A DNA stretch of 64,000 nucleotides, from the NCBI RefSeq assembly GCF_002205845.1, contig NZ_NISI01000006.1, positions 248,001 to 312,000 on the forward strand, in the 5' to 3' direction. The position numbers and the translations under genes are program-made. Source of the stretch: Roseateles puraquae. Lineage in GTDB: Bacteria > Pseudomonadota > Gammaproteobacteria > Burkholderiales > Burkholderiaceae_C. This document shows, in pieces, positions 19,031 through 21,702 of the stretch. Each line of letters starts with the position of its first letter. The stretch's first letter is position 1. The notes below the pieces were generated by a model. The model searched no databases. It had not been told where the DNA came from and saw only the letters and a program-made list of their open reading frames with translations.

Positions 19031-19061
19031 TCTTGACCTTCCCACCATGGGAAGGCTGAGC
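19031..19061 (+). promoter_or_regulatory. MerR/CueR-type copper-responsive promoter
   Basis: It has -35 TTGACC (19031-19036) and a dyad CCTTCCC (19035-19041)...GGGAAGG (19047-19053). A 19-bp spacer leads to a GAGCAT -10 (19056-19061). The long spacer spanned by an ACCTTCC/GGAAGG dyad closely matches the known E. coli copA promoter that CueR untwists with Cu(I). It lies 32 bp before the copA start codon. Confidence 0.8.
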
Positions 19062-19092
19062 ATGCCTGCATCTGCCTCTGCCGAGCTTCGCC

Positions 19093-21702
19093 ATGACCGC
19101 CACCACCGCCCCCCTTCCACGCCCATCCGCCCTGCATGACGTGACGCTGCAAGTCAGCGGCATGAGCTGCGCCTCTTGTGTGCGGCGGGTCGAGAAGGCC
19201 CTGCAAGCCGTGCCGGGCGTGCAGGCTGCCAGCGTCAACCTGGCCACCGAGAAGGCCACCGTTCAGGCTCTGCCGAACGTGCCGCCCCTGGCGCTGAAAG
19301 CCGCGCTCGACCAGGCCGGGTACCCGGCCGCCGTCGTCGAGGCCAGCGCGCCGCCGCCCGCTGAATCACCGCCCGACCCACGCGGCTGGTGGCCGGTGGC
19401 TGCGGCTGGCCTGCTGACTTTGCCGCTGGTGCTGCCGATGTTCAGCGGCCTGTTCGGGGCGATGTGGATGCTGCCCGGCTGGCTGCAGCTGCTGCTGGCC
19501 ACGCCGGTGCAGTTCGTGCTCGGCGCGCGCTTCTACCGCGGCGGCTGGCAGGCGCTGAGGGCCGGCAGCGGCAACATGGATCTGCTGGTGGCCCTGGGCA
19601 CCTCGGCGGCGTACGGCCTGTCGGTCTTCCTGATGTGGCGCCACCCGGGCCAAGCTCACCTGTACTTCGAGGGCTCGGCCGCCGTCATCACCCTGGTGCT
19701 GCTCGGCAAGTTTCTGGAACAACGCGCCAAGCGCCAGACCACCGACGCCATCCGCGCGCTCAACGCGCTGCGCCCGACCACGGCCCGCGTGCTGCGCGGC
19801 GAGCAGGAAGTGGACCTGCCGGTGGCGGAGGTACGCGTGGGCGATGTGGTGAGCATCCGCCCGGGCGACCGCATCCCGGTGGACGGTGAGGTCCTGACCG
19901 GCCGCAGCCATGTGGACGAGTCACTGCTCACGGGCGAAAGCCTGCCGGTGGCCAAGTCGCCCGGAGATCGCGTGACCGGCGGCGCCATCAACGCCGAAGG
20001 CGCGCTCACCGTGCGCACGACGGCCATCGGGGCGGAGACGGCACTGGCGCGCATCATCCGCATGGTGGAGTCGGCCCAGGCGGCCAAGGCCCCCATCCAG
20101 CGCATCGTGGACCGCGTGAGCGCCGTCTTCGTGCCGGTGGTGCTGGTGTGTGCGGCGCTGACCTTCGCCGGCTGGTGGCTGCACAACGGCGACGCCGAGG
20201 CCGCGCTGGTCAACGCGGTCGCGGTGCTCGTCATCGCCTGCCCCTGTGCGCTCGGCCTGGCCACGCCCACGACGCTGATGGCCGGCACCGGTGTGGCGGC
20301 CCGACAGGGCATCCTGATCAAGGACGCCGAAGCGCTGGAGCTGGCGCATGCGGTCACGGTGGTGGCCTTCGACAAGACCGGCACCCTGACCGTGGGGCAG
20401 CCCACGCTGACCGACCTCTGTCCCGCCGAAGGCCTGACGCGCGACGAGGTGCTGCAGCAGGCCGCCGCCCTGCAGCGCAGCAGCAGCCATCCGCTGGCCC
20501 TGGCCGTGCTCACTGAGGCGCGCGATCTGGCGCCGCTGACCGCCGAGGATGCCCGCGCACTGCCGGGCCGCGGGGTGCAGGGCCGGGTGCAGGGCCGCGC
20601 GCTCGCGCTGGGCAGCGCCCGGCTGGCGCAGGAACTCGGCGCCCACCGGGGGCCGCTGGTGGCCGAGGCCGACCGGCTGGCCGGGCAGGGCCGCACCGTG
20701 TCGTGGCTGGTGGAGGGTGACCGGCCGCTGGCCCTGCTCGCCTTCGGCGACCGCTTGAAAGACACCGCAGCCGCCGCCGTGGCCCAGCTGCAGGCTCGCG
20801 GCATCCACACCGTGATGCTGACCGGCGACAGCCGCAGCGCCGCTGCCAGTGTGGCGGGGGCCCTGGGCATCACCGATGTGCGCGCCGAAGTGCTGCCCGG
20901 CGACAAGGCTGCGGCGGTGCAAGGGCTGCGCGAGGGCGGCGCGGTGGTGGCCTTCGTGGGCGACGGCATCAACGATGCACCGGCCCTGGCCGCAGCCTCG
21001 GTGGGCTTTGCCATGGCCGGCGGGGCCGACGTGGCCAGCGAAGCCGCCGGCGTCACCTTGATGCGCGGCGACCCGCGCCTGGTGGCCGATGCGCTGGATG
21101 TGTCGCGCCGCACCTACGCCAAGATCCGCCAGGGCCTGTTCTGGGCGTTTGCGTACAACGTGGTCGGCATCCCGCTGGCGGCCTTCGGCCTGCTCAACCC
21201 GGTCATCGCCGGTGCGGCGATGGCCTTCAGCAGCGTCAGCGTAGTGGCCAATGCGCTCACGCTCAAGCGCTGGCGTGGCAGTGCGACCGAGGGTGCAGCC
21301 ATGAACATCGGCGACGCGGCCCGCGCCTCGGGCGTGTCGGCCAAGATGATCCGGCACTACGAAAGCCTGGGCCTCGTCGACCCGCCGGCGCGCACCGACG
21401 CGGGTTACCGCGTCTACGCAGATCGCGAGGTGCACCTGCTGCGCTTCATCCGCCATTCGCGCGACCTGGGCTTTTCGCTGGCCCAGATCCAGGCGCTGCT
21501 CGGCCTGTGGCAAGACCGCGCCCGCCCCAGCCGCGAAGTGAGGGCCCTCGCCCAGAACCACCTGGCCGAGCTGGACGCCAAGCTCGCCGAGCTGCAGGCG
21601 ATGCGCGCCACGCTGGCCGAGCTGATCGCGTGCTGCCACGGCGACGAACGACCGGACTGCCCCATCCTCGACACCCTGGCGGCGCCCGTAACAAAGCGCT
21701 GA
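19093..21702 (+). CDS. copA: Cu(I)-exporting P1B-type ATPase fused in frame to a CueR-like regulator
   Basis: An 869-residue open frame. Residues 1-736 are a copper ATPase: one HMA domain with CxxC (Cys26/Cys29), eight predicted membrane helices, TGES actuator, CPC (Cys383-Cys385), DKTGT with phospho-Asp427, an HP motif in SSSHPLAL and GDGINDAP. Residues 737-869 are a complete MerR/CueR protein. There is no stop between them: [15 protein letters not shown] runs straight into [11 protein letters not shown]. Whether the cell makes a fusion, two proteins by internal initiation, or both is unresolved. It exports Cu(I) from the cytoplasm. The promoter upstream carries a CueR-type operator, implying autoregulation. 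Confidence 0.9.
21301..21702 (+). CDS. cueR: CueR-like Cu(I)-responsive MerR regulator (internal start within the fused frame)
   Basis: The C-terminal 133 residues of the copA frame match CueR in full. A winged-helix DNA-binding part is at 1-70 ([19 protein letters not shown]), a dimerisation helix at 75-110, and a metal loop [10 protein letters not shown] with Cys112 and Cys120 spaced as in E. coli CueR. An ATG at 21301 is preceded by GAGGG with about seven bases spacing, so separate translation is plausible. It should bind the dyad at 19034-19054 and activate copA when Cu(I) rises. Confidence 0.6.

Follow-up and report, generated by a model that had tools for sequence, protein, structure and literature searches.

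One open reading frame on the plus strand of the window (the whole 64,000-nucleotide stretch of DNA analyzed here) runs from an ATG at position 19093 to position 21702 and encodes 869 amino acids with zero internal stop codons, joining a Cu(I)-transporting ATPase, CopA, to a complete copper regulator, CueR. The fusion is a true open frame in the assembly and is known at the sequence level from one assembly of one genome. Comparison with related loci makes it reasonably probable that an ordinary copA-cueR operon was fused by a recent one-base event in one lineage and that the fusion is not a selected device. Within the genomes sampled and the matches listed, the fusion is a singleton as judged by homology searches.

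Two domain sets in a single frame

The sequence-only reading had described copA as running straight into a full-length CueR with no stop between them. This was confirmed, as the 869-residue frame carries both sets of Pfam domains: HMA (residues 18 to 77), E1-E2_ATPase (226 to 405), and Hydrolase (422 to 635), followed by MerR_1 (737 to 803) and MerR-DNA-bind (781 to 844). The protein letters quoted for the junction also matched the sequence. The CopA part contains GMSCASC (the heavy-metal-domain CxxC), TGES, CPC, DKTGT, and GDGINDAP. These motifs, the Pfam domains, and the NCBIfam copper ATPase model TIGR01511 (score of 583, cut-off of 397) place it among the CopA Cu(I) P1B-ATPases; its score against the narrower equivalog model PRK10671 (604) was below the cut-off of 1316. 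CopA residues 1 to 733 share 95.6% identity with the orthologue in genome G017.

A complete CueR occupies residues 737 to 869 and shares 88% identity with the G017 CueR. The TIGR02044 CueR model scored 168.0 in the fusion and 173.6 for CueR alone, both above the cut-off of 147.4, and the Cys112 and Cys120 claimed from the sequence are present (cysteines occur at 111, 112, and 120); these features identify the part as CueR, with a score against the narrower equivalog model PRK10227 (101) below its cut-off of 244. Chains of PDB entries 1q05, 4wlw, 6ldi, and 7c17, structures of E. coli CueR, matched over CueR residues 1 to 127 with both Cys ligands aligned. In contrast to these solved proteins, the window CueR is preceded in frame by CopA. 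The coordinates of the features are listed in Table 1.

Table 1. Features of the fused copA-cueR locus, in window coordinates
Feature	Coordinates	Strand	Basis
Predicted CueR-type operator/promoter, TTGACC −35-like element plus dyad CCTTCCCACCATGGGAAGG	19033..19055	+	Pattern search, relatives
−10-like GAGCAT, 19 bp after the −35-like element	19058-19063	+	Sequence
CopA-type Cu(I) P-type ATPase part, residues 1-733	19093..21291	+	Pfam/NCBIfam, motifs, G017 orthologue identity
Tail/linker, residues 727-736, between last predicted CopA helix (703-726) and CueR	21271..21300	+	pLDDT <50 at 725-734
GAGGG, Shine-Dalgarno-like, 7 nt 5' of cueR ATG	21289..21293	+	Sequence; anti-SD duplex −6.4 kcal/mol
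CueR part (133 aa and stop codon); the ATG at 21301 is a possible internal start	21301..21702	+	TIGR02044, G017 CueR identity, dN/dS
TGA within ATGA of cueR start, copA end in close relatives, here off the CopA frame	21302..21304	+	Sequence, relatives

Purifying selection appears to act on both parts, as indicated by dN/dS values against G017 of 0.08 for CopA and 0.15 for CueR. On the window branch, polarized residue changes numbered 6 for CopA and 2 for CueR; the corresponding counts for the G017 branch are 11 and 4. Given these counts and the low dN/dS, neither part looks to be decaying. The low dN/dS could mean that CueR is still used, that the event was recent, or that the base is an error.

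A single structure prediction (mean pLDDT of 81.9, pTM of 0.70, 31 sequences) placed the last CopA helix at residues 703 to 726, followed by a low-confidence linker (725 to 734) and then a CueR-like part that includes a long helix (813 to 847). As the tail was predicted with low confidence, the linker is probably flexible.

The element just 5' of copA reads TTGACCTTCCCACCATGGGAAGG, a putative CueR site. The pattern TTGACCTTCCN{5,7}GGAAGG matched once in the 6.06-Mb genome, and the reversed-pattern control matched 0 times. A near-identical element lies upstream of copA in genomes G017 and G014; G007 and G008 carry a variant upstream of copA, TTGACCTTGCC followed by a GG-AAG arm. A CueR-type element shared with relatives in this position suggests that the operon is most likely autoregulated by CueR. 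A promoter and terminator scan found nothing within its spacer range, which excludes MerR-type promoters. Elsewhere in the genome, contigs C8 and C12 carry two further, separate copA-cueR pairs.

The junction and its counterparts in relatives

Six same-genus orthologues were found whose CopA is at least 80% identical across the available part; in each, copA occupies a different frame and terminates within an ATGA that it shares with a cueR start. The overlap is exact in five of the six, and the sixth (L013) shows ATGA at the first ATG of a duplicated start. The sequence-only reading had proposed checking the junction in related strains; the fusion stood for the window, and it did not extend to these six closest same-genus genes found, each part of an ATGA-overlapping pair. 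At L013 (genome G006, contig C17, near 534,343), a 12-nt duplication of the cueR start (MNIGMNIG) was observed with the overlap kept at the first copy. A further locus above 80% identity, L070 from a Rubrivivax metagenome-assembled genome, shares one frame between the two parts, but a stop interrupts it 24 nt ahead of the start; its CopA match covers residues 633 to 731 only. The ATGA pair of Pelomonas sp. Root405 (L075) has the same gene order, both proteins, and a CueR-type site upstream of copA; it differs in that the window has the copA stop position out of frame and one 869-residue frame rather than two.

CopA residue 733 and the cueR ATG are separated by 9 nt in the window versus 8 nt in L010, L011, L012, and L014, and the extra base relative to these relatives sits at the end of the tail. 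One additional base before the cueR ATG brings the CopA and cueR frames into register and puts the relatives' stop out of frame. The window thus lacks the ATGA-overlapping coupled pair found in close relatives, its TGA at 21302 being retained but off the CopA frame. The tail has diverged between species, and the linker is without conservation in relatives.

Internal initiation at 21301 had been called plausible on account of the GAGGG before the ATG, and that reading of the sequence is correct. The anti-Shine-Dalgarno duplex energy given for the window in Table 1 compares with −6.0 to −11.0 kcal/mol in 12 relatives, 9 of which have a stronger duplex. RNA folding around 21301 was unremarkable (z of 0.85). 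With an internal Shine-Dalgarno sequence weaker than in 9 of 12 relatives and an ordinary RNA fold, free CueR may be scarce.

Searches for further fusions

Frame relationships were compared at 99 distinct copA-to-cueR junctions, which come from the loci ranked best by the searches and are not a random sample. The comparison covered cueR matches of at least 45% identity and 90 residues whose upstream 400 nt include a same-strand copA match that is at least 40% identical and extends to residue 690. The three frame classes held 64, 21, and 14 junctions. Among the 21 same-frame junctions, 19 have a stop between the two parts, one is a broken locus (L109), and one is the window. L109 (Massilia sp. 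H-1, CP087969.1) was considered as a second fusion and rejected, as its copA is broken over three frames; it is probably an uncorrected assembly that mimics a fusion.

No second uninterrupted CopA-CueR frame was found among the 30 cueR loci listed for the genus with a CueR query, 21 of which, including the window, have copA upstream. Likewise, a query spanning the junction revealed no second fusion among the matches listed in samples of 399 genomes of the family (244 matching at 1e-30), 399 of the order (73 matching at 1e-40; also at 1e-55), 369 of the class (28 matching at 1e-30), and 398 of the phylum (107 matching at 1e-30). These counts include the window's own genome, genomes recur across the four samples, and scoring took in at most 8 or 9 first-look candidates per genome. 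The window therefore stands alone among the listed matches and the genus loci, and a conserved transporter-regulator fusion was not found there. Full-text literature searches gave no description of a natural CopA-CueR fusion in the excerpts returned.

Another 25 cueR loci whose frames stay open over long stretches were inspected, and none is fused; their CopA lies in another frame or runs into a stop. A shadow cueR frame extends over copA for 460 to 830 codons upstream at L041, L044, L045, L053, L059, L232, and L234 to L237 and also at L240, L241, L244, L245, and L247 to L249, and it reaches the locus edge in L044, L045, L053, and L059. As shadow frames are open in many high-GC relatives, counts of long open reading frames are misleading.

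Among plasmids, 4,982 records matched. Of the 60 records listed among these 4,982, the match was annotated as two features in 43; the remaining rows comprised 1 with the ATPase alone, 4 with the regulator alone, 6 featureless under the match, and 6 unannotated records. The row with the ATPase alone (H3) is not a fusion, as its annotated coding sequence stops short of the match end.

Origin of the fusion and alternative explanations

If the favored one-base origin is correct, copA and cueR would ancestrally have overlapped by ATGA, the usual arrangement for termination-reinitiation coupling, and a single base gained in the non-conserved tail of CopA would have moved copA into the cueR frame with loss of the copA stop. 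Every CopA made from the fused gene would then be a CopA-CueR protein, with CueR carried behind a presumably flexible tail of about 10 residues and, given the topology of CopA, located in the cytoplasm. As no ribosome would terminate at the overlap, coupled reinitiation should cease, and free CueR would be produced solely by de novo initiation at the internal Shine-Dalgarno sequence and ATG at 21301. Experiments on other gene pairs show that translational coupling needs a stop near the start (PMC10666635; PMC6728339).

The fusion could be tolerated because the C terminus of CopA varies, CueR withstands a tag at its N terminus, and the genome has two other copA-cueR pairs. E. coli CueR with an N-terminal Strep tag is reported to activate transcription still (PMC5329002). 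By analogy, the fused CueR may still function, although CopA is a much larger addition than a Strep tag. Provided that the extra base is genuine, the locus would offer a snapshot of gene fusion by loss of an ATGA overlap through a single indel, as well as a natural experiment on whether a MerR-family activator can work while attached to its transporter.

A less likely, though still weighty, alternative is that the extra base arose from an error in sequencing or assembly and that the organism has ordinary ATGA-overlapping copA and cueR genes. A single base decides the fusion, and the overlap is kept in all six same-genus orthologues found at or above 80% CopA identity. Furthermore, a survey of frame transitions inside predicted prokaryotic genes expects singleton transitions to arise through errors or recent indels (PMC3711429), which we apply to copA-cueR by analogy. 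An error would mean that one base in an overlapping pair had yielded a striking but false chimera.

However, 190 gene-by-reference comparisons (95, 41, 24, and 30) across 400 kb of the contig gave 0 frame changes, in an audit that used coding-frame segments, asked for 80% coverage, counted genes recurring between references, and is blind near gene ends. The lack of frame changes nearby argues against an indel-ridden assembly; the assembly is rated 100% complete with 0.07% contamination, and an indel would be unremarkable in a tail that has diverged between species. We therefore regard the extra base as likely to be a real natural mutation.

The 190 comparisons included five rows with one in-frame stop each, four at gene edges and one internal, outside the window. 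A small gene at about 220.1 kb on contig C38 of genome G000, outside the window, has one internal in-frame stop relative to G007. In a first audit, 6 of 74 contig genes were flagged against G007, and, judging by the alignments, the reference open reading frames in these cases lie wholly or in part in a wrong frame; in the reverse direction 9 of 67 were flagged, one of them being the CopA-CueR fusion.

The sequence-only reading had pictured a membrane pump carrying its regulator and tying promoter DNA to the membrane. As a selected functional fusion, membrane-tethered CueR would sense Cu(I) at the pump and feed back on the promoter at 19033-19055; we consider this improbable. The same low standing applies to a pump-sensor chimera in which copper at the pump would gate pump-gene transcription from the membrane, with free CueR as an internally initiated isoform. 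Each half is whole and carries its motifs, a CueR-type site precedes copA, the E. coli protein tolerates an N-terminal tag, and the structure model folds both parts around a low-confidence linker, all of which are consistent with a working fusion. However, the matches listed for the samples included no second fusion, the linker of about 10 residues is short and lacks conservation among relatives, and a CueR dimer would presumably require two adjacent pump molecules.

CadC and ToxR are membrane-tethered one-component regulators and Amt-type proteins include transporter-sensor fusions, and these architectures recur across species. They resemble the CopA-CueR protein in that a membrane protein bears a DNA-binding or sensor domain; in contrast, one CopA-CueR case was found here. 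The tethering claim is without comparative support, as the six closest same-genus genes found are paired with cueR by overlap, the wider searches listed no other fusion, and one base accounts for the fusion. As a one-base difference explains it, the fusion probably reflects a recent accident or a slip in assembly and not a conserved device. Tethering as a selected mechanism is unsupported, and the feature, a variant of a familiar gene pair seen in one genome, gives no evidence of a new regulatory device.

It is very improbable that separate CopA and CueR are mostly made anyway, through ribosome slippage in the tail to the TGA at 21302 or a protease cut in the linker: no slippery heptamer was seen by eye and the RNA fold is not special, although that TGA is retained one base out of frame and the tail, of low confidence in the model, is probably flexible.
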